DNA from: a virus | Direction: 5' to 3' (one strand) | Length of the DNA stretch: 41,548 nucleotides | Virus record (IMG/VR): IMGVR_UViG_3300035698_005497 | Span: 1 to 41,548 of that record | Shown: piece by piece, positions 3,823-21,669 of the stretch | Layout: every line of letters begins with the position of its first letter | Position numbering within the stretch: position 1 is the stretch's first letter | The notes under the pieces: model-generated | The model's database searches: none | The model's input: the letters and a program-made list of their open reading frames with translations, nothing else | What the model was told of the DNA's origin: nothing | Translations under genes and position numbers: made by a program

Positions 3823-5544
3823 ATGCAAGTAGAACATACGGAAGTTAATGGCTTTCAGATAGATGAATTTAATATTCACAAATTAGAAGAGGGGAAGAAA
3901 CAAGGAGTTTGTCCCCTCTGTTCGTCTGATAGAAAAGCTAAAAATCAAAAAGCACAATGTGCTTCTTACGATTGGCAGAGAGGTTTAGGCACATGTCACA
4001 ATTGCAATACAAGTTTTCAATTGAATACTTACAAGCGTAAAGGTGAATCTGAAAAAGTTTACATAAGACCAGATGTTGAAGCTTTAAAATCCATTAAGCC
4101 TCCTAGTTCTAAGGTAGTTGATTGGTTTAATGTTAGAGGTATATCTGAACAAACGCTCAAAGATCTTAATGTTTCTGAAGGCCCTGAATGGATGCCACAG
4201 ACTCAGAAGACAGAGAACGTTATAAAGTTTAATTATATAATAGGTGATCAATTAGTAAATGTTAAATACCGTGATGGTAGAAAAAACTTTAAGCTATATA
4301 AAGGAGCTGAAAAAGTATTTTACAATATAAATAGTATAGTTGGTTTTGATCACTGTATTATAGTTGAAGGCGAGATGGATGTATTAGCTTTACATGAGGC
4401 CGGTGTAAAAAACGTTATATCAGTTCCTAATGGAGCTACGTTGAACTCTAACAATTTAGATTACTTAGATAACTGTATTGATTATTTTGAAGGCAAAGAT
4501 AAAATTATTTTAGCATGCGACTCAGATGAAGCTGGTCAGGCTTTGCAAGCAGAATTAATACGTAGACTAGGGTCTGAAGTTTGTTACATAGCTACCTTTG
4601 AAGACTGTAAAGATGCTAACGAATACTTAATTAAATATGGAAAAGAAAAGTTATCAGAAAGAGTATCAAGCGCAAAGCCGGTACCTATGGAGAATGTTAC
4701 GACTTTCAGAGATATTGAAGGAGAGATTACCGACTTTGTTCGTAACGGGTTCAAGCCAGGATTTCAAGTTGGTCTTGAGCATTTTGATAGTATATTTTCA
4801 ACTTACACTGGTCAATTCATTACTGTTACTGGTATTCCGTCTTCCGGAAAAAGTGATTTTGTCGACCAAATGGTTGTTGGGTATAATGCTAATTACGGCT
4901 GGAAAACGGCGTTTGCTTCACCAGAGAATCAACCGACTTATTTACACGCTCATAAGTTAATGCGTAAAGTTTGGCAAGGTATGCCAACTAAAGATGATAT
5001 TGGTGGTGATCGATGGAATCAAATAGCAGATCATTGTAACTCTAATTTCTTTCACATAGATATGGAGCGTTACACATTAGACTCGGTTCTACGTAAAGGA
5101 GCTGAGCTTGTTAAACGTAAAGGTATTAAGTGTTTAGTTATTGATCCATTTAATAAAGTTAGAGACGTTGGTGGTTCTGACGATGTGAATAGGTACACTA
5201 TGGAGTACTTAGCTAAGATAGAGATATTTGCTAAAAAGTATGATGTGTTAGTCTTTATTGTAGCTCATCCAACTAAAATGTATAAAGACAAAGACGGTAA
5301 AATAGAAGAACCAACTATGTACAACATTAAAGGAGGAGGAGAGTGGTATGATGCTAGTTACCATGGTATATTAGTTCACAGGGATTATGACAAGAAAACA
5401 GTTAAAGCTAAAGTCTTGAAAGTTAAGTTTCAAAACTTAGGCGAAAATGGCGCTGAGTCTCATTTTAAATGGGAGCCAGCCTCAGGTTGTTTTATACCTC
5501 ACCAACAACTAGATATAAGTGGTGATAAAATGCCTTGGGAGTAG
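3823..5544 (+). CDS. T7 gp4-like primase-helicase
   Basis: This 573-aa protein combines primer synthesis and DNA unwinding at the phage fork. Residues 30-61 hold a zinc ribbon (Cys30, Cys33, Cys58, Cys61). A Toprim domain follows with VEGEMD (Glu182, Asp186) and ACDSDEAG (Asp233, Asp235). The C-terminal part is a RecA/DnaB-type helicase with Walker A GIPSSGKS (337-344), Walker B LVIDP (Asp441) and an AHPTK motif near 481. Length and domain order match T7 gp4 and Twinkle. It ends in TAG, 2 nt before the next ATG. No DNA polymerase gene accompanies it in this window. Confidence 0.92.
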   Translation: MQVEHTEVNGFQIDEFNIHKLEEGKKQGVCPLCSSDRKAKNQKAQCASYDWQRGLGTCHNCNTSFQLNTYKRKGESEKVYIRPDVEALKSIKPPSSKVVDWFNVRGISEQTLKDLNVSEGPEWMPQTQKTENVIKFNYIIGDQLVNVKYRDGRKNFKLYKGAEKVFYNINSIVGFDHCIIVEGEMDVLALHEAGVKNVISVPNGATLNSNNLDYLDNCIDYFEGKDKIILACDSDEAGQALQAELIRRLGSEVCYIATFEDCKDANEYLIKYGKEKLSERVSSAKPVPMENVTTFRDIEGEITDFVRNGFKPGFQVGLEHFDSIFSTYTGQFITVTGIPSSGKSDFVDQMVVGYNANYGWKTAFASPENQPTYLHAHKLMRKVWQGMPTKDDIGGDRWNQIADHCNSNFFHIDMERYTLDSVLRKGAELVKRKGIKCLVIDPFNKVRDVGGSDDVNRYTMEYLAKIEIFAKKYDVLVFIVAHPTKMYKDKDGKIEEPTMYNIKGGGEWYDASYHGILVHRDYDKKTVKAKVLKVKFQNLGENGAESHFKWEPASGCFIPHQQLDISGDKMPWE

Positions 5545-5546
5545 GT

Positions 5547-5801
5547 ATGGCAGCTAGAAAAAGTCCTTTTGATATGGGTGATTACACCCCTAACAAAACA
5601 GATACTGAAGCCTGGTTGTGGTGTATGCGTAACGATATACTTATTAGCCCTTTCGCTATATCTGAAGGTAGATGGGGTATGGTTATTAAAAACAAAGGGG
5701 TAAGTAATAAAGACCCTAAAACATATATCAAAGGTAGTGTATGGCCTAAAATGTACGAATACTATAAATATTATTTTAATAAATATGAAAACAAAGTTTA
5801 A
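5547..5801 (+). CDS. Small conserved hypothetical protein, 84 aa
   Basis: I chose the ATG at 5547 (MAARKSPFDMGDY); a TTG 12 nt earlier would overlap the primase stop. The protein has a Trp-rich first half (TEAWLWCMRNDILISPFA, then GRWGM) and a conserved-looking YIKGSVWPKMYEYYKYYF end. It has no membrane segment and no recognisable motif. It overlaps the following thymidylate-synthase-like gene by 17 nt. Small proteins of this shape are common between primase and nucleotide genes in marine phages, but their role is unknown. Confidence 0.6.
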   Translation: MAARKSPFDMGDYTPNKTDTEAWLWCMRNDILISPFAISEGRWGMVIKNKGVSNKDPKTYIKGSVWPKMYEYYKYYFNKYENKV

Positions 5802-6426
5802 AAATGCAAACGAAGCGTATGAGTACTTTCACGACAAGATTATTACTGATGGTGTTAATTTTAGTAACACTAAGGCTTTATTCAATGTAGGATTTACATT
5901 AGAAAACCCAATGGATAATGCTATACATAACGTTGAGCGTAAATTCAATATAGACTACGCGAAAGCAGAATGGGCCTGGTATGTATCTGGTGATCCTAAT
6001 ATAAAGAAGCTTGGAGAAATATACGGTAAAATACCTCCTATATGGAAACGTATGGCCGATGAATTTGGTGATGTTAATTCTAATTATGGATATCAATGGA
6101 TGAGAAACGATCAAATAGGTTACGTAGCTAAAAAACTGAGACAAAACCCAAGCACTAGACAAGCAACTATTAGTATTTACGATGGTAAAGAGCATGACAA
6201 ATACACTAACGACACGCCTTGTACTTATGCTGTTCAGTTCACGGTTGTAGATAACAAACTAAATATGTCAGTCTATATGCGTTCTAATGACCTCTGGTAC
6301 GGTTTCTGTATTGATCAGTATTGTTTTTCACGTCTACAGGTTTTAATGTCTAAGATGACAGGTTTCAACGTTGGTACGTATTATCACCACGCGCATAACT
6401 TGCATTTGTATAACGATAAAATATAA
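5785..6426 (+). CDS. Thymidylate synthase-family protein, probable dCMP hydroxymethylase or methylase
   Basis: I chose the ATG at 5785; an upstream ATG at 5737 lies inside the previous gene. The 213-aa product keeps the thymidylate synthase core: VNSNYGYQW at 97-105, Arg125, nucleophile Cys146 in DTPCTYAVQF, MRSND with Arg166 and Asp169, and LHLY with His207 and Tyr209. These match the E. coli ThyA positions. ThyA has Asn177, which recognises dUMP, but this protein has Asp177 (CIDQY). Asp at this site is the signature of T4 gp42 dCMP hydroxymethylase, and the wider MRSND-GF-D pattern resembles T4 more than ThyA. It stops about 50 residues short of ThyA, so the C-terminal lid is missing. MazG-type hydrolases follow. 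Confidence 0.8.
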   Translation: MKTKFKNANEAYEYFHDKIITDGVNFSNTKALFNVGFTLENPMDNAIHNVERKFNIDYAKAEWAWYVSGDPNIKKLGEIYGKIPPIWKRMADEFGDVNSNYGYQWMRNDQIGYVAKKLRQNPSTRQATISIYDGKEHDKYTNDTPCTYAVQFTVVDNKLNMSVYMRSNDLWYGFCIDQYCFSRLQVLMSKMTGFNVGTYYHHAHNLHLYNDKI

Positions 6427-6430
6427 TAAA

Positions 6431-7201
6431 ATGTACAACATCTATCACATATTCGGTAAAAAAATAGGAGTAACACGTGATCTTATTAACAGGGTTACGA
6501 AGCAACAAGGTTACGCTTTAGACGAATACGAAGTTCTACTTACTAGCGACGATATAGATTATATATCAACTATGGAGATAGAACTTCAAAAGTCTTATGG
6601 CTACAAAGTAGACCGACAATCTTATAAAAATTTAATCAATAAAAACAAAAAAATGGACATTAACATAACAGAACAAACAACTACATTTCCAGTTCCACTT
6701 AATAAATTAAAAGGCAGATTACTAGATGCTTTGGGTTTAAAGTGGAGTACGGCTCATGGTGAATTCACTATAACAAAAGACAACATTAAATCAATAGTAG
6801 CTAATGCTAAAACTTCCATGTACAACAGTGGTAGATCATATGTGTATAACAAGGCTATGGCCAATGAATTTAAGAGTGAAAAACCTTTCTATGAGGAAAA
6901 CGAAAGAAACGTTTATGATTTAATAAGGACTTGGGCTAAAGAAAAAGGTATATACGCTAAAGGTGATTCAAAAACTCAATATCTAAAACTAATGGAAGAA
7001 GCTGGCGAACTAGCTGAGGCTTTGCTTAAGAATGATAAAGCAGAGATTATAGATGCTATTGGTGATATTGTTGTTGTTTTAACAAACTTAGCTGCTTTAG
7101 AAAATCTAAGAATAGAAGACTGCGTCACAAGTGCTTATGACGTTATTAAAGGTAGAAAAGGCGAGATGATTAACGGAACATTTGTAAAACAAACATTATA
7201 A
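6431..7201 (+). CDS. GIY-YIG-like domain fused to MazG-type nucleotide pyrophosphohydrolase
   Basis: The start at 6431 gives 256 aa, 4 nt after the upstream stop. Residues 1-65 resemble a degenerate GIY-YIG domain: NIYHIFGKKIGVTRDLINRV, then Glu51 in a TMEIELQ helix. YIG is changed to KIG, so nuclease activity is doubtful. Residues 75-150 form a linker with no clear family. Residues 180-250 are a MazG-like all-alpha NTP pyrophosphohydrolase: LMEEAGELAEAL (Glu189, Glu190, Glu193), then EIIDAIGDIVVVLTNL (Glu205, Asp208, Asp212), ending GRKGEMINGTFVK. It would hydrolyse a (d)NTP to the monophosphate. The upstream dCMP-type enzyme suggests dCTP as substrate, which is inference. Confidence 0.75.
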   Translation: MYNIYHIFGKKIGVTRDLINRVTKQQGYALDEYEVLLTSDDIDYISTMEIELQKSYGYKVDRQSYKNLINKNKKMDINITEQTTTFPVPLNKLKGRLLDALGLKWSTAHGEFTITKDNIKSIVANAKTSMYNSGRSYVYNKAMANEFKSEKPFYEENERNVYDLIRTWAKEKGIYAKGDSKTQYLKLMEEAGELAEALLKNDKAEIIDAIGDIVVVLTNLAALENLRIEDCVTSAYDVIKGRKGEMINGTFVKQTL

Positions 7202-7202
7202 A

Positions 7203-7547
7203 ATGAGTATAGAGAAAATAGAATTTAGAGATCCAGTCGTTAGACGGGTAGTTAATAAGTTTGTAGAAAGATCCAACGTGGGCTTTGCTAAATACGGTAG
7301 AACGTTAGATAGCGAAAGAACCGGTGGTCATAAAAACCTATTTGGGTATCTAAACGATGTGCAAGAAGAGTTAATGGACGCAATACTTTATCTTCAAGCA
7401 GCTAAAGAAGAGTTGTCTGATTTATCTGAAGACATAGAACTTAAACGTATAAATATAATAGCTCAAAATGGTAACAACGGGGAGCACTACGTTAAGAAGC
7501 CCCGTGGTTGTCACGATAAAAAAAATAAAGATGCAGAAGCCTTATAA
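7203..7547 (+). CDS. Small MazG/dNTP pyrophosphohydrolase-like protein
   Basis: This 114-aa protein starts 1 nt after the MazG-fusion stop. Residues 22-70 (ERSNVGFAKYGRTL, then a Gly/His segment, then YLNDVQEELMDAILYLQ) match the look of short phage all-alpha nucleotide pyrophosphohydrolases. Glu55, Glu56 and Asp59 are candidate metal ligands. The second ExxD half of a full MazG motif is not clear, so it may be incomplete or act as an oligomer. The C-terminal 30 residues are basic and unstructured and overlap the next gene by 17 nt. Substrate is unknown. Confidence 0.55.
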   Translation: MSIEKIEFRDPVVRRVVNKFVERSNVGFAKYGRTLDSERTGGHKNLFGYLNDVQEELMDAILYLQAAKEELSDLSEDIELKRINIIAQNGNNGEHYVKKPRGCHDKKNKDAEAL

Positions 7548-8758: not shown

Positions 8759-9727
8759 ATGTCATTATTTACACCACGAGTTGCTTACAAACCCTTTGAG
8801 CACCCAGAGTATTACACTGAAGGTTGGCTTAAACAAGCTCAGGCTTTTTGGTTACACACAGAGATATCAATGCAAAGCGATATCAAAGACTGGAATGAAA
8901 AGCTAGATGAAAAAGAAAAAAACTTAGTTGGGAATATACTTCTTGGCTTTGCTCAAACAGAATGTGCAGTGTCGGATTACTGGACCCAGAAAGTTGTTAG
9001 TTGGTTCCCTAAACACGAGATACAACAAATGGCTATGATGTTTGGATCACAAGAAACAGTCCACGCGGTAGCTTACAGTTATTTAAACGAAACATTAAAA
9101 TTAGAAGACTATGAGGCTTTTTTACACGAACCAGCAACTGCTGAAAGGTTTAATAACCTGGTTGCATATAGTGGTACAAGCCGCACTGGTATCGCTAAAT
9201 CTTTGGCTGTCTTTTCAGCCTTCGCTGAGGGCGTATCTCTCTATTCCGCTTTTGCAGTTCTGTATTCTTTTCAGTTGCGTAATTTACTTAAGGGTATCGG
9301 ACAACAGATGAAATGGTCTGTGAGAGATGAATCTCTTCATAGTAAAATGGGTTGTCAATTGTTTAGACATATGTGTGAAGAAGATAATCAATTACTAAAT
9401 CTTTGTAGAGAGGATATTATAACATCTGCAGAGGCAATGGTAAAACTAGAAACAAATTATATTGACAAAATGTTTGAAATGGGTGACATAGAAGGTATCT
9501 CATCAAACGACCTTAAACACTTTATAAAGAAGAGAACAAATGAAAAACTTGTGGAATTGGGTTATGTCGACCTTGGAAACTATTTCGCTTATGACGTTAA
9601 AGCAGCAAATAATCTTAATTGGTTCTATCATCTTACCGGGGGGGTCACTCATACTGATTTTTTCGCTATTAGGTCGACAGATTATTCAAAAGCTGGGGAA
9701 AATGAAGACTACGATAATATATGGTAA
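8759..9727 (+). CDS. nrdB: Class I ribonucleotide reductase, small (beta) subunit
   Basis: This 322-aa protein holds the dimetal centre that generates the radical for NrdA. Aligned on E. coli NrdB, the candidate metal ligands are all present: Glu68 (QTECAVSDYW), Glu99 and His102 (QETVH), Glu157 (AFAEGVSLY), and Glu191 and His194 (RDESLH). Tyr106, four residues after His102, fits the radical tyrosine. The C-terminus (YDNIW) fits the flexible tail that docks on the large subunit. Glu rather than Asp as first ligand, with the VSDYW context, is common in Bacteroidota and phage enzymes. It pairs with nrdA at 10139. Confidence 0.93.
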   Translation: MSLFTPRVAYKPFEHPEYYTEGWLKQAQAFWLHTEISMQSDIKDWNEKLDEKEKNLVGNILLGFAQTECAVSDYWTQKVVSWFPKHEIQQMAMMFGSQETVHAVAYSYLNETLKLEDYEAFLHEPATAERFNNLVAYSGTSRTGIAKSLAVFSAFAEGVSLYSAFAVLYSFQLRNLLKGIGQQMKWSVRDESLHSKMGCQLFRHMCEEDNQLLNLCREDIITSAEAMVKLETNYIDKMFEMGDIEGISSNDLKHFIKKRTNEKLVELGYVDLGNYFAYDVKAANNLNWFYHLTGGVTHTDFFAIRSTDYSKAGENEDYDNIW

Positions 9728-10011: not shown

Positions 10012-10152
10012 ATGGACACTAATGATTTTACGCCTGGTTTATTAAGGTGGGAAGGAGATATGTGGATATTAAATAGAGATGAGTCTTTAGACTTAGAGGT
10101 AGATAAGGAAATAATGAATGAAATACAAAAAATAAATAATGACTGGAAATGA
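10012..10152 (+). CDS. Small acidic hypothetical protein, 46 aa
   Basis: ATG 10012 to TGA 10152 encodes 46 residues, acidic, with MDTNDFTPGLLRWEGDMWIL and an amphipathic C-terminal helix. It overlaps the nrdA start by 14 nt, so it is probably translationally coupled to nrdA. No family is recognised. Confidence 0.5.
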   Translation: MDTNDFTPGLLRWEGDMWILNRDESLDLEVDKEIMNEIQKINNDWK

Positions 10153-11890
10153 AATCAAGAATAAATCAGGATGGGACCCGAACTGGATCAAGGGAGAAGA
10201 TTTTCCAACGTGGGGTGATAACGACGTATACAAGAAGACAATATCCGGGGGATATCTACATAACGGAGAAACGCCCAAAGAAGCATACCGTAGAGTCGCT
10301 GAAGCGGTTGCTAAAAGATTATATAAACCTGAAATGGCTAATAAGTTTTTCGATTATATCTGGAATGGTTGGTTGTGCCTTGCTAGTCCTGTACTCTCAA
10401 ACACTGGGACTGATCGCGGCTTACCTATTAGTTGTTTTGGTATTGACGTTGCTGATTCGATACAAGATATCGGAACTAAAAATCTAGAGATGATGCTACT
10501 CGCTAAACACGGCGGTGGAGTTGGTATCGGTATAAATCAAATTAGAGCCGCTGGAACTAAAATAACAGGCAATGGAACATCAGATGGAGTCGTACCATTT
10601 TGTAAAATCTACGATTCAACTATCTTGGCCACTAATCAAGGATCAGTTAGACGAGGAGCTGCTTCGATTAATATTAATATCGAGCATGACGATTTCGAAG
10701 ACTGGCTTGAAATCAGAGAACCTAAGGGAGATGTCAATAGACAGTCGCTTAATCTTCACCAATGCGCTGTTGTTGGAGATAAGTTTATGCGTAGACTGGA
10801 ATCCGGTGACGCAGAGGCAAGAACTAGATGGAGCAAACTTCTTAGAAAAAGAAAAGCAACTGGTGAACCATACATTATGTTTAAGGGAAACGTTAACAAA
10901 GCGAATCCTCAAGCATATAAACACAACGGATTAAAAGTTCATATGACTAACATATGTTCTGAAATCACATTACACACCGATGAAAATCACAGCTTTGTTT
11001 GTTGTTTATCATCATTAAATTTAGCAAAATATGAAGAATGGAAAGACACTAACCTTATATATGACTCTATCTACTTTCTTGATGGAGTTATGGAAGAATT
11101 TATTCAACGAGCCAAAGGGTTACGAGGCTTCGAGAATTCGATTCGTTCCGCCCAGAAAGGGAGAGCATTGGGATTGGGAGTTCTTGGATGGCACACGTAT
11201 CTCCAAGAAAAAGGAATTCCCTTTGAAGGTTTACTGGCTCAGTTTGAAACTAGGAAGATTTTTTCGCAAATTAAAATCGAAAGCGAACGCGCTTCAATGG
11301 CTCTTGCCGAGATATATGGTGAACCTCTTTGGTGTGTTGGTACAGGTATGCGTAATACTCATCTTCGCGCTATTGCTCCTACCGTTAGTAATAGTAAGCT
11401 TAGCGGGAATGTTTCACCAGGAGTAGAACCTTGGGCCGCGAATGTTTTTACCGAACAGTCAGCAAAAGGAACTTTTATACGTAAAAACCCTACATTAGTT
11501 AAATTATTAAAAAAACACAAAATAAACAATGAAAAAATCTGGAATAAAATACTGGCTGACGGAGGCTCTGTTGAGGATATTATGGAGCTTGACGATGTTA
11601 CTGTGGGTATGCATTCTATCCCCGCTAAAGAAGTGTATCGAACTTTCAAAGAGATTAACCAATTGGAATTAGTTAATCAAGCTGGAATACGCCAACAGTA
11701 TATTGATCAATCCGTTAGTTTAAACCTTGCTTTTCCTAGTGAAGCTACGCCAAAATGGATCAACAAAGTTCACATGGAAGCCTGGAAAAAAGGTGTTAAA
11801 ACTTTATATTACACTAGAACAGAAAGCGTTTTACGTGGCGATATCGCAGCTGCTGCTATGAGCGAGGATTGTATAAGTTGTGATGGCTAA
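10139..11890 (+). CDS. nrdA: Class I ribonucleotide reductase, large (alpha) subunit
   Basis: This 583-aa protein is the catalytic subunit that reduces ribonucleotides to deoxyribonucleotides. Family residues by position: Cys99 (LPISCFG), the NICSE triad with Asn271, Cys273 and Glu275, Cys288/Cys289 (FVCCLSSLNL), the radical-transfer tyrosines Tyr557-Tyr558 (LYYTRTE) and the C-terminal redox pair CISC (Cys578, Cys581). It starts close to the barrel and has no N-terminal ATP cone, so dATP feedback inhibition is probably absent, as in many phage enzymes. It lies downstream of nrdB and is the last plus-strand gene before the terminator. Confidence 0.93.
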   Translation: MTGNEIKNKSGWDPNWIKGEDFPTWGDNDVYKKTISGGYLHNGETPKEAYRRVAEAVAKRLYKPEMANKFFDYIWNGWLCLASPVLSNTGTDRGLPISCFGIDVADSIQDIGTKNLEMMLLAKHGGGVGIGINQIRAAGTKITGNGTSDGVVPFCKIYDSTILATNQGSVRRGAASININIEHDDFEDWLEIREPKGDVNRQSLNLHQCAVVGDKFMRRLESGDAEARTRWSKLLRKRKATGEPYIMFKGNVNKANPQAYKHNGLKVHMTNICSEITLHTDENHSFVCCLSSLNLAKYEEWKDTNLIYDSIYFLDGVMEEFIQRAKGLRGFENSIRSAQKGRALGLGVLGWHTYLQEKGIPFEGLLAQFETRKIFSQIKIESERASMALAEIYGEPLWCVGTGMRNTHLRAIAPTVSNSKLSGNVSPGVEPWAANVFTEQSAKGTFIRKNPTLVKLLKKHKINNEKIWNKILADGGSVEDIMELDDVTVGMHSIPAKEVYRTFKEINQLELVNQAGIRQQYIDQSVSLNLAFPSEATPKWINKVHMEAWKKGVKTLYYTRTESVLRGDIAAAAMSEDCISCDG

Positions 11891-12462: not shown

Positions 12463-15400
12463 CTATCTTTCTATCTTAGTTTTTAAGTTTAAGTTATTTT
12501 TTGTTTTTTTCTTCTTTTTTTCCTCTTCTTTTTTTATATCTAATTCCCAAGCTGACCAACCACCTATTAAAGCTAATCTCTTATACGTCTCTATCTCGCT
12601 ATTAGATGCGTCAACTAGGTTTTCTACTTTTTGTATAATTCTATCTGATGGAAAATTAAAAGCAGCAGATACAACTTTACCACCTGCTTTAACAGCTGGG
12701 CTAGATAAGCTAACTCCTTGTTCTTTAATTTCATCCATCTCCCAAGACATTGTTCTACCAGCTGCTCTAAACTTTTGAATCTTAGAAGATATTGGAGGTG
12801 CTATCTTTAATAACTCTAAAAAACCATCTTCATATTTAGGGTTTTTCTTTTCACTGTCTCTATATAGCTTTAAAGCTGTGTTTTTAACAACTGAAAATAT
12901 AGCTCCACCGATACCCGTACCTCTAGCTATACCGTCTATCATACTATTAACTACATCCACTGTTTTCTTGTCTTCCTCTTCTTCGTCTCCAAATGTCATA
13001 GCAAAAACAGCCTGTTGCAGCGTTGTAAATATAATATTTTGAACAACCCCATAGTAAAGTATCTTAGATATGTTAGACTTAGCGTCTCCTCTGCCGTTTT
13101 TAAGATCGCTAGCGGCTTTTTTAATAAGTCTAGCATACTGGGCTGGTGTGTTAGCAAAAGCTAGTATAATACGCCCTAAAGGACCTGCTTGTTGTTGACT
13201 TATTTTATCTGGTCTACTAGATTGTTGAGATTCTTCAGCTGTCTCTATAAAATCCCTCATAGCTAGTTTTTCTGCTGCTAATGGATCCATTCCTTTTTTA
13301 ATTAAAGAATTAATTCTGTTTCTATAGAAAGTAGAACCACCTGATGCAATAGCAAAGCTATCAGCTACCTGCGTTGGCGTAAAGCCTAGTTTTAACAAAT
13401 AGTTTAAAGCTCCTCTAGCGCCTTTTTCTTTAGCTATATCCGCTATATCAGCTTCGTTTACATTTACTTTCAAACCATCTCTCCTGTCAATCAAGTATTC
13501 AGATTTAAAAAGAGTTGAAAAATCACTCCAGTACTGCTTTTGATTAGCTAGAGCTTTACCAGCGGCTAAAACGTTATTATCTGTAAAGTTTATAAAGTTT
13601 ATAGCAGATATTGTTTGTAAAACTGCTGATCTAGTATTTAAGAACATTATAGCGCCAACAGAGCCATTTACCCAGTCTGTAACTCTACCTGTTAGAGTAT
13701 CGGTACCGTAATCTCTGTTCTTACCGGTTTTCATTCTCCTTAACGTGTTTTCCATTGCTTTACGGTACTGTGTCCCATAAGAAGCTTCTAACTTGTTTAG
13801 GTTTTCTACTGAGAAAATAGCATCAACGTTTTTTTGCCATTGCTCTAAATGCATTTTTCTTCTAGTTGTGTTTAACACCTCTAGTAGATCAGTTGTTATG
13901 TTACCTGTTATCCACGTGTCACTAGGTGAAAGATATTTTTTACCTGGGTTCAACCTCATTACTTGAGCAGCGAATTCAGATAAATTTGCGTCAGCATCGA
14001 CGTATTTAACCAATTCACTAATATCTGTTTTACTTAAACCTGGAGCTTCTATCCCTATGCTATTCCATATCCAAACACGAGCAGCTTGCTCTCTAGTAAA
14101 TAGTCCATCTGGAGTTTTTTCTTTAAGGTCTTTCGGTGTAACTTTGAATTCTTTTTTTATCTCTTTAAATCTTCTACCAAAGGCATTCCTATCTCTTGAT
14201 ATGGCTTGATTCGCTCTAGCATATGGGTCTAGTAATGTTCTTTTGTAAAACTGCATCTGCTGATCACCAATTTTACCTTTACCTAGTGTGTAGTACAATA
14301 GCCCAACAAAATCTTCAGCCGATGGTGGTATAAATATATTGAAACGACGTTGGCTATCTGCTATCATTTTAGCTTTTACTTCAGATATTGTCTCCGTAGC
14401 TAGTATGCCGGTTTTATTTTCTATTATCTTGTTAAATTCTCTACTTAAGTTTTTACTGAATCGCGCGTCGCTATTAACTTCTTCGTTATATTTTCCTAAA
14501 CCCGTGTTGACAGGAGCTATTTGAAGTATTTTATTTTCTTTAATAGCTTTGCTAATTATCGACTGAGCTTCTGTGTTAGAGTATCTTGAAGCATCTGCCT
14601 CTTGTAGATTACTCTTAGAGAGAACGCTGTTTAGTTCTTTAGATATAAGGTTAACATAAACTCCTTTCAAATAACTTCTCAAAGAAGCTTCATTGCCTTT
14701 TTCGCCAAACTCTAGTAGTTGTTTTTTAATCTTTAGAACTGTTGTAGCGTGTTCTAAATACATGTCTTTAGGTTTTACGCCTTGCATTTGCGCTCCAGGT
14801 TTAGAAAGCTTACGTATTGGACCTCTTTGATCTAAAGAAAGAAAAGCTATAACTGATTTTATTTTATTAATATCACCATTTTGGTCTGATATAGCTTTAA
14901 TAATGTAATTAACAGATGCCGCTGCTTGAGCCTCAATTTCAATAACAGTAGCTGGAGTGAAACCAGTTTTTTTAATCTCGTTAGTAATATCCAACATGCC
15001 TCTTAGCAATTCGTCTTTATAGTAAATAAATGACTTACCATCTTCTCTTTTTACTTTAAAACCTAAATCTACAGCTATTTTTATAGGTTTTATATACTTA
15101 TTAAAGAAATCATAATTACTAGGAACTTTCTCTAACTTACTTGACTTAGCTGATCTAGAAGCAAAGTATAGAAATTCTTTTATTAATTCCGCTCTATTTT
15201 CGTCACTGCTATTTGTTTTACTTAAATTAGATTTCAAGTCTGAATAAACTACACTAAGTCCAAACCGCTCATACTCTTTAATATATGTATCTCTATAATT
15301 ACTAAACGCTTTTAGTATTATAGATTGATCACTAGGTCTATAAGAAGACACTAGGTTGTTTACACTTTCTGCTTGAAATTCTCTACGGTCTTTTTCTGTA

Positions 15401-18400
15401 ATCTCTACTTTAGCTATTTGATCTATTGCTTTTAAAACATCTATTATATTGCTATTTCCTTCTTCGATGACACTAGATAATGCTTCTTTGGTTTCATCAC
15501 TTAGTAGTTGGTTATTTACTGTATTAGTAAGAATTTTCACATCTGACTTGTCAAACGCTTTAGAAAACCTAACTTCAAGATTCTTGCTGAATTTTATATC
15601 ACCTTTTTTATCTGTATAGTTAGCTTCAATTAACTCATCTGTGTTTTTGAACGCGGCATCCATACGGTCCCACCAAAACTTATCGTTTCCGTCTCTAAGA
15701 GATACTAGCTTATTGTTTGGTGTAAAAGCTATTTTATAGCCATTACCATCAGAGTTATAACTTTCAAACAATCTAAATGAATTATCTAATTCATTTAGAT
15801 TACTTAAAATAGATTTAGCTTCAGTCTCTTTCTCTTTAAAGAAAACATTTTTAATAGGGTGTTTTTTACTTTTGTTGAAATCTCTTCGCATTACAACAGT
15901 TCCGCTTTCCTCCTTGTAATAAGTTAGTATGTAAACTTTACCAAGCTTTGTTTGAAGTCCTGGTAGTTCTACAACTGGCTTAAACATGAATCCTAGTTCT
16001 TTTAGTTTAGCTTTTTCTTTATTCAAAGAATCTAAAGAAATAAACTGCTTACTGGACTCGTCGTACTCTACCTCAGAAGTTACTGTTATTTTTTCGTACT
16101 CACCACTTTTTTCGTATTTACTAGCAGCTTTACGAGCTTCTTTAATAGAACTAAAATCTTCAAAATCATACCAACCAACACCTTGTTCTCCCCATAAATC
16201 AAGAATCTTTTGGTTTAAACTGTCTTTACTTTTTATAGTTCTAGCTATTAAGCACCAAGGGTTAGACTTTACACCCCAAGTACTATCTACAGCAGCTCTA
16301 ACATCAAGCTGACCTTGCTTGTCGTCCTTAACATCGTAAACAACTAAACCATTTTCTAATACTTTTTTATTGCTAAATGAATTTACTTCATCAGGGTTAA
16401 TTTTCATTGGCTTAATCTCACCTGAGAACTGTTCTAGTATTTCGTTAGGGTTTTTATAGCTATATGGGTCTATTTTCTTTATAGAAGATATTCTTTCAGC
16501 TTGTATCACTTTGTAGCCATCTTCTGGAAGTATTACAAAACCATTGTTCATATAGTAAAAAGCTAGCTTTTCAAATTTACTTTTTTTATTTTTAGGTACG
16601 TTTAAATTATCCACCCATAAAAACAGTTTATCTACTTGTCCAGCAGCGTCTTTCATTGAGGGTCTATTCTTAGCTAAGCTAGTTTCGTAGGACTTTTTAG
16701 CGTTCTTGCTAAACATTACCCTGGATTTACCCCCGCCAATATCAGCTAATACTTTTTCTGTAGGTTTTTTATCAGATGTGATACCTTTTTCTACAATATC
16801 TTTTCTAATTATAGTGTTAGCTACGTTCGCGGCATATATCTTGGTTAAACCCTGTAAAGCCGTACCAAATTTAGTTCTGTTAACACCTTTCATTGGTATA
16901 AAAGCCTCACCAGCTTCTGTAATACCTATTGTTTTCTGTAATTCTTTTACTGCTTCTTTAGATACTCTACCTCTATATTTGTCCTTTAATCTATATACTT
17001 TAGCTACTTGAGAAGTTTTACCTTTACCTCTACCAGATGGAGAAGTTATAGCTCTATTTTTAACGTCTTTGTCGCTGCTTTTAGACTTAGGATCAACGTA
17101 CACGTCGTATAATTGGTTCAATAAAACACTTGAAGTCCCTACACTGTAACCTTTAGCGTCTGTAGTTAAATCTATAGATTTCCCCTGTTTATCCACTGTT
17201 GTCTCAAACGGAGCTATATTAAACTCAGGTATAGTTTTTATGAATTTAACAGCGTCGTTATAGTTTAAAAACAGTTTTTGCATAGCTCTAACCTCTGCTT
17301 CACCTCCGGTGTCTTTACCGTAGTTAAGCGTTCTAGTGCCATCTATTCTCTCAGCTAACTTCTTGTTCATGTCTACATCAAAAGCGTTGTTAGGATCAGT
17401 GCTATACACTCCTAAGATAGCTGCTCCAACTGGTCCAGCATATTGATCAACAACTTTTTTGTAAGTTAAATTAGCTATGTCTATATTCTCTGTTTTTACT
17501 ATGTCTTTTATTGTACCTATCTTGTCTTTTACGTTATTAAAAGTAGTTACGTCAATTAGTTCACCAGCTGGTAAACCTCTTTCAGCGCTAGTGTAGGCGT
17601 CGAAATCTCTAGATCCTTCATCCGCTAGTTCTCTAGTTGACCCTACTGATCCAGCCTCTAAGTCTAGGCTTTGTGTGTTTTGTATTTTACCTTTTAAGGC
17701 TTTGTCTAGTATTTGCCCGTATCTTAAGCTTAAGTTTTTCTTCATGTAAGCACCGAAAGGAACTTTCTTACCGTCTACTAACACTTTATACGTGTTAATA
17801 AGAGCAGATAACTCTTCACTGAATCCAGAAAAGAATTCATCATAACCAACCTTAAGACCACTATCTATAGCTAAGTCTTTTCCTACAGCTGCCGCTTTTT
17901 TAGCTAGATTAGTTACAGCACCTAGATTGTTTTCACCTAGCCTGTTGACTATAGCTTTACGCTTCTCAGGGTCTTTTATGTCAGAAACGCTATTAGCTTT
18001 TAACTCTAGTATTTCGTTAGAAATATCTTCATTTTTTTTAGATATGTCCTTGTTTTTATCTGATACTTCTGTTTCTTTAAATACTTTTTCAGAGGCTTTT
18101 TTAATAACCTCTTCTGTGTTGTTTTTGTTATCTAATGTACTTGGCTTAGAAACAACTTTCTCTTCAATAGGCGCTCTTTTAGCAGCTTCTAATTTAGATT
18201 CTAAGTTACCTAATTCTTGCTCGTACTCGATGTCGTCCATCTCGCCGTTGTAGTATCGATCTGTAAGATCCTCTATTTTAGTTTCAATATCAGCAATACT
18301 TTTACTCTCTGATATAGTTTGTTTTGCTATTTTTTCATCTACATTTGCACTTTTCTTAATAACAAATTCTTTTCCAATTTTTCCTTTTTGAAAAGCTTTA

Positions 18401-21400
18401 TTATAATCTTCTATGAAATTAACGACAGAGTTTTCGCTTTCATTGAACTTAATTTTAATTAATCCGACGTCTTGAAATTGTCTTCTAAAATAATCTTTTA
18501 TCTTAGTGTAGGTAGATTTATCAGGTTTTACATCTTCACGAGATAGAGCTTCTGAAAATAAAGTTATATATTCTTCGTAAAAATTATCTTTAGTTATTTT
18601 TTTGTCTTCGTAGTCTTTTTCGTAAGAAGATAGTCTATCTTTAAATTCTACACCTTGGCTTTCTGGTAAAGATTGTATTACATTTTTAAGTAATTCAACA
18701 CCTTCATTTAAAGACTTAGAATCTTCAGCAAAGTTATATCTTAGTAATTTATGTAAAAACTCGTGTTGACCTGTTGTAACAACGCTTTCTTTTATAGCAA
18801 CGGTTTTATTTATAACTAAAATCTCCTTACCTTCTTTGTTAGTAATAAAAACACCTAGGTTGCCTTTACTTTCTTCAGATCGTTCTTCGCTTAAACCAGA
18901 GTCTAAGAGTATTTTTTTCATTTTATCAGCAGAGCTTTCATTAACATCATCTTCAAGCGCTATAACTTCACCTATATTAACACCAATTTTAGCGGCATTT
19001 TTTTGTACGTTTTCAATGTCTTTTTCTATTTTAGATAAAATATCTCTTTTTACACCTCCCTGCTTTATGTCTTTATCTATTTTATTTATTTTTTCATCAA
19101 TTTCGCTATAAAAAGCTGGATCTGTTTTTTCTTTTTCTTGTATTAATTTGCTTTTTTCAACTAACAAGTCTATCTGTTCAGATGTAACGTTTTCTGGAGA
19201 AGATTCTATAGCTTTTTTAATATCTCTAGAAAACACTATAGCGTCGTTTATCTTTTCTTTAGATTCGCTGTCTTTCGTGTATTTGTACATGGTCATCAAG
19301 TGAAGTTCTAGACCATTTATGTTTTCTGATATTTGATTGTATATTAATTTTTTTTGGTTACTAAACGTATTTTTTGCTCCAACCGTACCCATAGAACCAC
19401 TAAGCATTAAAGTACCCATTGTCAATTCTATTTGTTGATTTAAAAACTCACTAGCTTTAGGTAGTGCTAAACCAAAAGAAGCGTCTGTAAGAATGTTAGC
19501 ACCCAAAGTTATCTCTTCTTCCGCGTATTCTTTTAAAATTCCAGTACTAAATTCTTTAACAGCAGACTTAACGCCTTCTTTGTTTGCGGCGGTTTTTAAC
19601 GTGCCAGCAAAAGCTTCTTTTATTGTTTTACCTCCAACTCCTTTTAGAAATTGAGCATCTGGCATTATACTTTGTACTAAAGCCTCAGTGCTTGATATAG
19701 CTGTAGCGTAAGCCGTAGCTTGCAACCCGTTTAAACCTAGTAGTTCTGCTTGTTTTTGATTATCTATTATGGTGGCCCTGAAAGTAGCATCAACCATTAT
19801 TATATTATCTTTAAGTTTTTGTGAAGCCTGTGGAAGCACTTTTCCTTTAGCTCCTAGATTTATATATGTTTTACCTAAAGCGTCTTTTAAACCAGTGTAA
19901 TTACCTTTTCTAACTTCAGATATTAGATAACCAGTAAAAGGAACCATACTAACACCTAGTTTAGCGTAGTTTCTGGCTTCAAAACCTTTAAAACCACCTT
20001 CTTCTTTTGTTATACTAAATTTTTCATCAGTTGATTGAGGTACCATAGTGTTGTTTGTCCAGTTACCAACAATGTCTCTAAAAGCGTCAAAACTAGAGTA
20101 ATTATCTTGGTCTTGAAACATATCACCGAAACTAGATAAAACCCAAGAACCTGACCCTACTGTTGCTTTTTTAACAGTTTGATACAAGCCTTGTACTAAA
20201 TCACCACCAACTATGTCTTTCGTAGCGTTCCAAAAACCATCACCTGCGTATTTTTCTCTAAAACTATCAGCGTCGCTACTTAGTTTAAAGTTGTTATTCA
20301 TAGTCTGCTTAGCTAGGTCAACACCTAGTTCACCTTGATATGAATTAAATTTGTTAGCAGCGTCTTTCTTGAAGTAATCATAGTTTTCTGCAGTGGACCT
20401 TATCTTGCTATTTGTGTTTTCGTATTTACTAACTAAAATATTATAGGCGCTAGAGTCTTCTTCGTTTAAAATATACCTACCCTGCTCGTCTTTTTGTTTA
20501 CCACTTACTACGTCTTTTATTAATGCATTTATGTTATTTATTTCTTTAGAATAATTATACATTTTACTCTCAGTTTCTATAGTTAGTTTTTCAACTGCAG
20601 TAGAAATCTCTTTTTCTTTTTCTTTAATTAAAGGTATTTTTACGTTATTAATCAAGTTTTCTTTTTCTTGTAAAGTGTAAAAACCGCCTGCTAGTTTCTG
20701 TAAAGACCTTTCGTCTAAATTATTAATTACTGCATCTTCAACCTCGTCGTTTAATTTTATTGTCTCTGTTGACTCTAGGTTCTTATAGTAACTTTTTCCT
20801 TTGAATAAATTCAAAACACCAGCCTCACTAGATAGGTCAGAAGCAACGTCGCCAGTCGCTCTATTGTTATTTGAGTTTCTAGATAACTGAATAATAGCAT
20901 CGTTTCTTAGTTTAAAGTCAGGATTAAGATTCATTACTTTTACCTCGTTGGCTACGGTTTCATCAAAATCTTTCATGGTTTTCTTAACGTAATTTACGCT
21001 TTCCATTGGATCCATAGTCTCGTAAGAAGTAACTTCAGCTTTTTTTCTTAACTTATCTTTTTCTAGTTGAAGCTCGTTTAATCTATTTCTATTTCTTTTA
21101 TATGTTTCTAATTTATCTACTGGTTTAAATTTCTGCAACTGAGGCGGAGCACCGTAATCGCTATCTGTTAAGTCCATTATAGAGCTAGCCTTTTGACCAG
21201 TTCTTTGTTCAAAATTAAACAAAGCTTGATCAGTGCTTATTTTTTTTACTGAAGCTTCTTTGGTTTTATCTAACTGCCTGCTGTTTTTAGCTTTTAAATC
21301 TCTTTCGGCTGTTAATCTTTGTCTATCACTGAAATTTAATTTTCTTTTTTGATCAAGAGACATTTTCTCAAATTGATCTAAAGTTGGTTTTTTAAGTTCA

Positions 21401-21669
21401 GTATCAGAATCTTGTAATGCCGAAGAAGTGTTTCCCGAACCTAAAACCGTATCTGTTGCTACTCCTTGTTTCGCTGTTGCATTTGCAACCGGTCCCACAA
21501 CAGCGTTTGTCTTTACTTCTTCACCAAAAAAACCACCAACTGGTGATTCTTGTTTTATTTCTTTTATAGTAGGGTTTTTTGAAAGTAATTCTTCAAACGT
21601 ATAACCTTTTTCATTAGCTATAGCTTGTAGTTGATCTAGTGAGTATTGTTTTCCGTTAAATTCGAACAT
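12463..21669 (-). CDS. Giant polyvalent virion/ejection protein, 3068 aa
   Basis: This 9.2-kb gene encodes 22% of the window. The N-terminus (YSLDQLQAIANEKGYTFEELL) is a helical start seen in phage ejected proteins. Long helical segments follow, then hydrophobic stretches near residues 565-580 and 640. HEFLH at 969-973 is a zincin HExxH motif, with Glu-rich helices after it. NPWCL at 1803-1807 lies in a separate alpha/beta-looking region. FSK motifs at 1653, 2027, 2035 and 2404 mark likely module boundaries. The C-terminal part (AFANTPAQYARLIKK near 2820-2850, then hydrophobic helices) resembles the LPD38-type region of polyvalent proteins. Position after gp14-like and 489-aa genes fits a T7 gp16-like internal protein that crosses the host envelope. 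No T7- or N4-type RNA polymerase motif was found. Confidence 0.85.
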   Translation of the reverse strand: MFEFNGKQYSLDQLQAIANEKGYTFEELLSKNPTIKEIKQESPVGGFFGEEVKTNAVVGPVANATAKQGVATDTVLGSGNTSSALQDSDTELKKPTLDQFEKMSLDQKRKLNFSDRQRLTAERDLKAKNSRQLDKTKEASVKKISTDQALFNFEQRTGQKASSIMDLTDSDYGAPPQLQKFKPVDKLETYKRNRNRLNELQLEKDKLRKKAEVTSYETMDPMESVNYVKKTMKDFDETVANEVKVMNLNPDFKLRNDAIIQLSRNSNNNRATGDVASDLSSEAGVLNLFKGKSYYKNLESTETIKLNDEVEDAVINNLDERSLQKLAGGFYTLQEKENLINNVKIPLIKEKEKEISTAVEKLTIETESKMYNYSKEINNINALIKDVVSGKQKDEQGRYILNEEDSSAYNILVSKYENTNSKIRSTAENYDYFKKDAANKFNSYQGELGVDLAKQTMNNNFKLSSDADSFREKYAGDGFWNATKDIVGGDLVQGLYQTVKKATVGSGSWVLSSFGDMFQDQDNYSSFDAFRDIVGNWTNNTMVPQSTDEKFSITKEEGGFKGFEARNYAKLGVSMVPFTGYLISEVRKGNYTGLKDALGKTYINLGAKGKVLPQASQKLKDNIIMVDATFRATIIDNQKQAELLGLNGLQATAYATAISSTEALVQSIMPDAQFLKGVGGKTIKEAFAGTLKTAANKEGVKSAVKEFSTGILKEYAEEEITLGANILTDASFGLALPKASEFLNQQIELTMGTLMLSGSMGTVGAKNTFSNQKKLIYNQISENINGLELHLMTMYKYTKDSESKEKINDAIVFSRDIKKAIESSPENVTSEQIDLLVEKSKLIQEKEKTDPAFYSEIDEKINKIDKDIKQGGVKRDILSKIEKDIENVQKNAAKIGVNIGEVIALEDDVNESSADKMKKILLDSGLSEERSEESKGNLGVFITNKEGKEILVINKTVAIKESVVTTGQHEFLHKLLRYNFAEDSKSLNEGVELLKNVIQSLPESQGVEFKDRLSSYEKDYEDKKITKDNFYEEYITLFSEALSREDVKPDKSTYTKIKDYFRRQFQDVGLIKIKFNESENSVVNFIEDYNKAFQKGKIGKEFVIKKSANVDEKIAKQTISESKSIADIETKIEDLTDRYYNGEMDDIEYEQELGNLESKLEAAKRAPIEEKVVSKPSTLDNKNNTEEVIKKASEKVFKETEVSDKNKDISKKNEDISNEILELKANSVSDIKDPEKRKAIVNRLGENNLGAVTNLAKKAAAVGKDLAIDSGLKVGYDEFFSGFSEELSALINTYKVLVDGKKVPFGAYMKKNLSLRYGQILDKALKGKIQNTQSLDLEAGSVGSTRELADEGSRDFDAYTSAERGLPAGELIDVTTFNNVKDKIGTIKDIVKTENIDIANLTYKKVVDQYAGPVGAAILGVYSTDPNNAFDVDMNKKLAERIDGTRTLNYGKDTGGEAEVRAMQKLFLNYNDAVKFIKTIPEFNIAPFETTVDKQGKSIDLTTDAKGYSVGTSSVLLNQLYDVYVDPKSKSSDKDVKNRAITSPSGRGKGKTSQVAKVYRLKDKYRGRVSKEAVKELQKTIGITEAGEAFIPMKGVNRTKFGTALQGLTKIYAANVANTIIRKDIVEKGITSDKKPTEKVLADIGGGKSRVMFSKNAKKSYETSLAKNRPSMKDAAGQVDKLFLWVDNLNVPKNKKSKFEKLAFYYMNNGFVILPEDGYKVIQAERISSIKKIDPYSYKNPNEILEQFSGEIKPMKINPDEVNSFSNKKVLENGLVVYDVKDDKQGQLDVRAAVDSTWGVKSNPWCLIARTIKSKDSLNQKILDLWGEQGVGWYDFEDFSSIKEARKAASKYEKSGEYEKITVTSEVEYDESSKQFISLDSLNKEKAKLKELGFMFKPVVELPGLQTKLGKVYILTYYKEESGTVVMRRDFNKSKKHPIKNVFFKEKETEAKSILSNLNELDNSFRLFESYNSDGNGYKIAFTPNNKLVSLRDGNDKFWWDRMDAAFKNTDELIEANYTDKKGDIKFSKNLEVRFSKAFDKSDVKILTNTVNNQLLSDETKEALSSVIEEGNSNIIDVLKAIDQIAKVEITEKDRREFQAESVNNLVSSYRPSDQSIILKAFSNYRDTYIKEYERFGLSVVYSDLKSNLSKTNSSDENRAELIKEFLYFASRSAKSSKLEKVPSNYDFFNKYIKPIKIAVDLGFKVKREDGKSFIYYKDELLRGMLDITNEIKKTGFTPATVIEIEAQAAASVNYIIKAISDQNGDINKIKSVIAFLSLDQRGPIRKLSKPGAQMQGVKPKDMYLEHATTVLKIKKQLLEFGEKGNEASLRSYLKGVYVNLISKELNSVLSKSNLQEADASRYSNTEAQSIISKAIKENKILQIAPVNTGLGKYNEEVNSDARFSKNLSREFNKIIENKTGILATETISEVKAKMIADSQRRFNIFIPPSAEDFVGLLYYTLGKGKIGDQQMQFYKRTLLDPYARANQAISRDRNAFGRRFKEIKKEFKVTPKDLKEKTPDGLFTREQAARVWIWNSIGIEAPGLSKTDISELVKYVDADANLSEFAAQVMRLNPGKKYLSPSDTWITGNITTDLLEVLNTTRRKMHLEQWQKNVDAIFSVENLNKLEASYGTQYRKAMENTLRRMKTGKNRDYGTDTLTGRVTDWVNGSVGAIMFLNTRSAVLQTISAINFINFTDNNVLAAGKALANQKQYWSDFSTLFKSEYLIDRRDGLKVNVNEADIADIAKEKGARGALNYLLKLGFTPTQVADSFAIASGGSTFYRNRINSLIKKGMDPLAAEKLAMRDFIETAEESQQSSRPDKISQQQAGPLGRIILAFANTPAQYARLIKKAASDLKNGRGDAKSNISKILYYGVVQNIIFTTLQQAVFAMTFGDEEEEDKKTVDVVNSMIDGIARGTGIGGAIFSVVKNTALKLYRDSEKKNPKYEDGFLELLKIAPPISSKIQKFRAAGRTMSWEMDEIKEQGVSLSSPAVKAGGKVVSAAFNFPSDRIIQKVENLVDASNSEIETYKRLALIGGWSAWELDIKKEEEKKKKKTKNNLNLKTKIER

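Follow-up and report, generated by a model that had tools for sequence, protein, structure and literature searches.

Several enzymes of the thymidylate synthase (TS) superfamily that act on cytosine nucleotides have been described. In the ternary complex of the phage T4 dCMP hydroxymethylase gp42 (PDB 1b5d/1b5e, 6a9a), Asp179 is the residue for cytosine, Asp145 and Ser94 hold and activate a water molecule and, compared to TS, Val85 replaces Trp83 and the C-terminal tail is missing (PMC6400193). The CMP hydroxymethylase MilA (5b6d) also has an Asp at the base site. Its Ala176 and Lys133 serve the use of ribose, whereas Ser and Arg mark the use of deoxyribose (PMC5175136). A further type is the flavin-dependent dCMP hydroxylase (5-hodCMP synthase) of phage HY126 (9iqc, 9iqu), and ORF48 of RB69 is nearly identical to 9iqc; the biosynthesis of 5-hydroxycytosine in phages is treated in PMC13390438. 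The MetaGPA study (PMC8670742) ranks Asp177 and position 147 highest among the residues that mark phage contigs with modified cytosine, and finds TS together with PRA-PH domains on these contigs.

A close relative is WAX06796.1 of Bacteroides phage BF486P2, annotated as deoxycytidylate 5-hydroxymethyltransferase. In the BF486P2 cluster (L002:6653-12681), a carbamoyltransferase (PF16861, 1.3e-34) and an AAA kinase-like gene are accompanied by a dUTPase and a pair of TS-like genes; the cluster resembles the 5-carbamoyloxymethylcytosine arrangement in the MetaGPA paper. The catalytic Glu58 of the second TS-like protein is replaced by Leu.

The window analyzed here is the whole of a 41.5-kb virus record (IMG/VR record IMGVR_UViG_3300035698_005497; 41,548 nt), of which 41,234 b recur at 99.98% within G001, a contig of 59.6 kb. 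Two related contigs, of approximately 63.4 and 66.2 kb, are complete as judged by end overlap. A related terminase was found in 89 cultured-phage records, essentially all from Flavobacteriia phages (Flavobacterium (Elemovirus), Cellulophaga, Tenacibaculum and Maribacter phages), which supports the Bacteroidota host proposed in the original prediction. The best reading is that the window phage is a marine Flavobacteriia-type podovirus. At the end of its structural module lies a giant ORF of 3068 aa (12463-21669, minus strand), probably an internal virion protein, and homologous ORFs of 2084-2849 aa occupy the matching place in other genomes of the group. The relevant features of the window are:

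3823-5544, plus strand: TOPRIM primase-helicase, the constant upstream neighbour and the basis of the slot census and the swap tree
5547-5801, plus strand: conserved small ORF of 84 aa between primase-helicase and enzyme, the upstream border of the swappable slot
5785-6426, plus strand: predicted dCMP 5-hydroxymethylase, a compact TS-superfamily enzyme of 213 aa with Asp177
6310-6318, plus strand: codons 176-178 (Ile-Asp-Gln), with the base-specificity residue Asp177 at 6313-6315 (Asp in 81/81 relatives)
6431-7201, plus strand: MazG / PRA-PH-domain pyrophosphohydrolase (Pfam PF01503, 3.9e-07; PF03819, 8.3e-07), candidate dCTP-to-dCMP supplier
7203-7547, plus strand: conserved ORF of 114 aa with no named family, matching PHROGs of unknown function
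8759-9727, plus strand: class I ribonucleotide reductase small subunit (Pfam PF00268, 6.9e-55), dNDP supply
10139-11890, plus strand: ribonucleotide reductase large subunit (Pfam PF02867, 2.7e-93)

The ORF at 5785-6426 starts with ATG, and its stop codon is followed immediately by a second one. It matches Pfam PF00303 (thymidylate synthase, 3.8e-29) and PHROG 160 (8.5e-44), far above chance, and by this sequence similarity it is a TS-superfamily protein. A scan of IMG/VR with the window enzyme returned 382 relatives, the best 80 of which show 64-100% identity across essentially the full length, measure 212-218 aa and end in the common motif HNLHLYNDKI. Truncation or frameshift as the source of the short ORF was rejected, as the relatives share the same end point. 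The gene is under purifying selection, with an NG86 dN/dS of about 0.04-0.17 (dS being partly saturated). A single TS-family place was found in 32 of 33 long contigs, and two in the remaining one (G007).

For the comparison of residues, 81 family members were aligned to E. coli ThyA and T4 gp42. The numbering of the window enzyme coincides with that of ThyA at Cys146, Arg166, Ser167, Asp169, His207 and Tyr209. These residues and Thr147 are invariant in all 81 members, as are Glu62, Ser99, Tyr101 and Asp143. The E. coli Asn177 aligns with an Asp that is equally invariant (81/81), so that the originally predicted exchange at this site, with the catalytic residues at their ThyA positions, is found throughout the family. 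Furthermore, the window enzyme carries Met90 at the Trp83 position, Asp143 at the Leu143 position and Ser99 at the position of T4 Ser94, and it stops four residues past Tyr209, without a C-terminal tail. The T4 determinants are thus all present and invariant in the family (equivalents of Asp179, Asp145, Ser94, Tyr96, Glu60, Ile81 and Trp82, a non-Trp residue at Val85, no tail).

In a panel of 22 reference proteins, TS was characterized by Asn177/His147/Leu143/Trp83, the dUMP hydroxymethylases by Asn177/Asn147 and the RB69 type by Asp177 together with Phe58/Glu143/Asn169/Val173. The T4-like enzymes and the window family share Asp177/Thr147/Asp143/Asp169/Gly173 with a Glu at position 58. The window enzyme therefore differs from ThyA (Asn177, His147, Trp83, C-terminal tail) in having Asp, Thr, Met and no tail, and from SPO1 gp29 and the Vi01 enzyme in the Asn177 and Asn147 of these dUMP hydroxymethylases. 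A dUMP enzyme, either a thymidylate synthase or a dUMP hydroxymethylase, that tolerates Asp177 would be compatible with the superfamily membership, and SPO1 and Vi01 do make hmU with TS-like enzymes. Since Asn177 is present in all TS and dUMP-hydroxymethylase rows of the panel, which form other clades, and Asp177 in 81/81 relatives and in every readable slot occupant (see below), this reading is highly improbable, and dUMP was rejected as substrate on residues. CMP, the substrate of MilA, was rejected as well, the deoxyribose pair Ser167 and Arg125 standing in place of Ala and Lys at the ribose site.

Similar genes were observed in three other phages. In Maribacter phage Molly_1 (L112:2890-3969), a TS-like gene with Asn177 but Asp143/Thr147 adjoins a beta-glucosyltransferase and UDP-sugar enzymes, which may point to a pathway for glucosylated hmU in this flavobacterial phage. 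In Lactobacillus phage ATCCB (L108:4995-6899) and Enterococcus phage VPE25 (L109:3995-6353), genes with Asp177 and the hydroxymethylase signature lie beside or near beta-glucosyltransferase genes; their annotation as thymidylate synthase is probably wrong.

The AlphaFold2 model of the window enzyme (mean pLDDT 93.6) matched CMP/dCMP hydroxymethylases and a dCMP hydroxylase with VIA Z values of 22-24, slightly ahead of TS with about 21. Values within 1 were treated as ties, and the top match is accordingly tied between MilA and 9iqc/9iqu (24.4 and 23.8), followed by the T4 enzyme with 22. T4 gp42 shares 25% identity with the window enzyme and is longer (246 vs. 213 aa). In the sequence profile comparison, MilA was the best match in PDB (2.9e-25). 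In the tree of TS-family proteins, the window family lies outside the TS (100/100), dUMP-hydroxymethylase (99/98) and RB69-type (99/97) clades and joins BF486P2, whose protein shows 46% identity and the same residue signature, as sister group at 94/92. The join with T4 gp42 was not robust, the deep branches being weak and the T4 row very long. Alignment, tree, structure model and literature thus agree with the original prediction in supporting Asp177 as the mark of dCMP specificity.

The match to 9iqc/9iqu brings in a product beyond those originally predicted, namely 5-hydroxycytosine made by a flavin-dependent dCMP 5-hydroxylase (5-hydroxy-dCMP synthase) of the RB69/HY126 type. Both structures are among the best matches, and the fold, Cys146, Thr147 and Asp177 are common to both enzymes. 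However, according to the signature derived in this analysis from RB69 ORF48 (RB69_48) and OLIVR6, the RB69 type alone has Phe58, Glu143, Asn169 and Val173, where the window family has Glu, Asp, Asp and Gly. In addition, this type forms the separate clade named above and is the far weaker sequence match (profile E of 2e-14, compared to 3e-25 for MilA), which makes a 5-hydroxylase very unlikely.

The original prediction had left hydroxymethyl- and methylcytosine side by side as products. For the window enzyme, the hydroxymethyl product is clearly favoured on sequence grounds (no tail, Trp83 to Met, Leu143 to Asp, Ser at the position of T4 Ser94), and the methyl product is not upheld. Methylation of dCMP to 5-methyl-dCMP, giving 5mC DNA like that of Xanthomonas phage XP12, could draw on Asn-to-Asp mutants of bacterial TS that methylate dCMP (Liu and Santi 1992, as cited in PMC8670742) and on the ThyA-type enzymes, full-length and with Asp177, that sibling phages carry in this slot. 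But the window enzyme ends without the C-terminal tail by which TS closes its site for hydride transfer; Met replaces Trp83, Asp replaces Leu143, and methylation is quite unlikely here.

The window gene is therefore best read as a minimal dCMP 5-hydroxymethylase of the T4 gp42 type paired with the downstream MazG, a reading to which we assign a probability of roughly 83%. It is based directly on homology, residues, predicted fold and operon conservation, from which we infer substrate and product of the enzyme. Cys146 would add to C6 of dCMP, while Asp177 would recognise and protonate N3 and thereby select cytosine. Glu62 would activate methylene-tetrahydrofolate, Tyr101 would act at the C5 proton, and a water held by Ser99 and Asp143 would attack the exocyclic methylene. 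With neither a C-terminal lid nor Trp83, hydride transfer would be disfavoured. Taken alone, the window enzyme adds an expected, though unusually small, new member to the dCMP hydroxymethylases.

Of the 75 loci long enough to show it, 74 have a MazG gene directly downstream of the enzyme gene, at a median gap of 8 nt, followed by the conserved 114-aa ORF, a DUF1064/Holliday-resolvase-like gene and ribonucleotide reductase. In T4, gp56 turns dCTP into dCMP. The MazG of the window probably does the same, and we infer a dCTPase. MazG alone is not diagnostic, since a PRA-PH gene is also annotated in a TS-less elemovirus relative. By eye, the N-terminal ~70 aa of the window MazG (MYNIYHIFGKKIGVTRDL..., 6431-6650) resemble a GIY-YIG-type fold, though with no Pfam match; this would be an unusual fusion if real.

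The T4-type dNMP kinase DNMK (PF21448) was not found in five genomes of the group, and ThyX was not found in the group contigs searched. Glycos_transf_2 (GT2), T4-Gluco-transf and Carbam_trans_N gave no match in 21 group contigs; as PF00535 scores nothing on T4 itself and misses the T4 glucosyltransferases, PF09198 was searched as well. Nor did any sugar or carbamoyl transferase appear when 44 mostly early ORFs were scanned with Pfam. Decoration of hmC with a sugar or carbamoyl group was thus rejected for transferases of the families searched in the group contigs. The steps that usually come after hydroxymethylation are therefore lacking in these searches, a point against the hydroxymethylase reading, as is the lack of a T4-type dNMP kinase. 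The window group differs in these respects from T4, with its dNMP kinase and glucosyltransferase, from BF486P2, with its second TS-like gene and carbamoyltransferase, and from the MetaGPA Asp177 TS group (available part of PMC8670742), with which it shares the predicted specificity and the PRA-PH co-occurrence but in which carbamoyltransferases occur. A family A or B DNA polymerase was detected in only 1 of the 21 group contigs, a family A enzyme at G009:C1:9583-10635 (7e-74), and in none of the other 20 searched. Given the absence of a transferase and a T4-type dNMP kinase from these searches, bare 5hmC is predicted from sequence for the virion DNA. 5hmC would enter the phage DNA through host kinases and, for most of these genomes, the host DNA polymerase, and would there block restriction.

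The hm-dCMP made by the same enzyme could instead serve solely to shift nucleotide pools, such as by depleting dCTP, with the DNA left unmodified; the searches are consistent with this, having turned up neither a kinase nor a transferase for hm-dCMP. Such a role is unlikely, since the strict retention of dCMP specificity across enzyme swaps (see below) fits DNA protection better, as does the lack of restriction-site avoidance, although the latter is confounded. Avoidance of 4-base palindromes was seen in 2 of 39 enzyme-bearing sequences vs. 5 of 6 TS-less relatives; the TS-less members checked are MW202828, an elemovirus, Panino, phi19:3, phi38:1 and Gundel. BF486P2, also predicted to be C-modified, strongly avoids GATC and CTAG. 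Because of this avoidance and the different hosts, site avoidance was not relied on as a proxy for modified DNA.

Among the TS-less phages, MW202828, which carries ThyX, the elemovirus (L105) and Panino (L205) have totally or nearly lost some 4-base palindromes (MW202828, L104 and L124: GATC 0/193, CCGG 0/26; L105: CATG 1/119), and the enzyme-bearing contigs mostly have not.

In sister contigs with a primase-helicase 77% identical to that of the window and equal gene order, the slot holds a full-length ThyA-type protein with about 27% identity to the window enzyme, again with Asp177. A search identified 24 such contigs that share this synteny; the slot protein of every one has Asp177, Tyr147, Leu143 and Trp83, and its AKVAI-type tail is intact. 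For a census independent of the TS gene, the primase-helicase of the window was used as query, and 76 of 80 contigs could be classified: 48 slots contained the hydroxymethylase type, 28 the ThyA type, and none was empty. ThyA-type occupants occur among contigs L220-L242, L250 and L251-L330. Asp was present at position 177 in all 75 readable occupants. The 28 ThyA-type proteins form two families of about 38% identity to each other, with Tyr147/Trp83 (10) and His147/Asp83 (18). By analogy with the N-to-D mutants of TS, the full-length ThyA-type enzymes are predicted to be dCMP methylases, with more doubt over the product of the His147/Asp83 family, which has Asp in place of Trp83. In two contigs reached through MazG (L362, L363), the slot holds no enzyme and is a gap of just 256 nt.

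At least about 10 changes of slot type are needed on the primase-helicase tree, at least seven of them forced by well-supported branches; the bootstrap behind this count is not fully settled, and recombination within the primase-helicase could inflate it. L258 and L260, for example, match at about 84-87% DNA identity on either flank and are unalignable across the slot. Such alignable flanks around an unalignable slot in matched pairs show that the change is a local gene replacement. Four changes are needed for Asp177 on the TS tree. Independent N-to-D changes among the ThyA-type slot enzymes are likely, with a single origin not rejected (AU p 0.073).

On balance it is probable, with clearly less confidence than for the window enzyme itself, that the operon slot (primase-helicase, 84-aa ORF, [enzyme], MazG) is a swap site for cytosine-modifying chemistry in a large group of aquatic Flavobacteriia phages. 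At least three mutually distant Asp177 TS-superfamily enzymes, one the compact hydroxymethylase and two probable dCMP methylases of the full-length ThyA type, would interchange there, and close relatives would then contain 5hmC or 5mC. The strongest sign that the slot serves C5-modified dCMP is that dCMP specificity is kept while the enzyme body is swapped.

dCMP hydroxymethylases are already known, and Asp177 is a published sign of modified cytosine; slot-swapping between enzyme types is not part of the MetaGPA description in the available part of PMC8670742, and the swap is what would matter. If the prediction of bare 5hmC holds, these would be very simple 5hmC phages that have a single enzyme, do not glucosylate and for the most part show no DNA polymerase gene in the searches. 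The siblings with about 75-87% identical DNA around the slot are natural matched pairs (for example L258/L260, L254/L275), suited to comparing the effect of 5hmC and 5mC on sensitivity to type IV restriction and to other defences that depend on DNA modification. Close relatives with 5hmC and 5mC genomes, if confirmed, would fit modification-dependent restriction selecting for a changed modification, and the repeated swap would show selection both for some cytosine modification and for changing which one.
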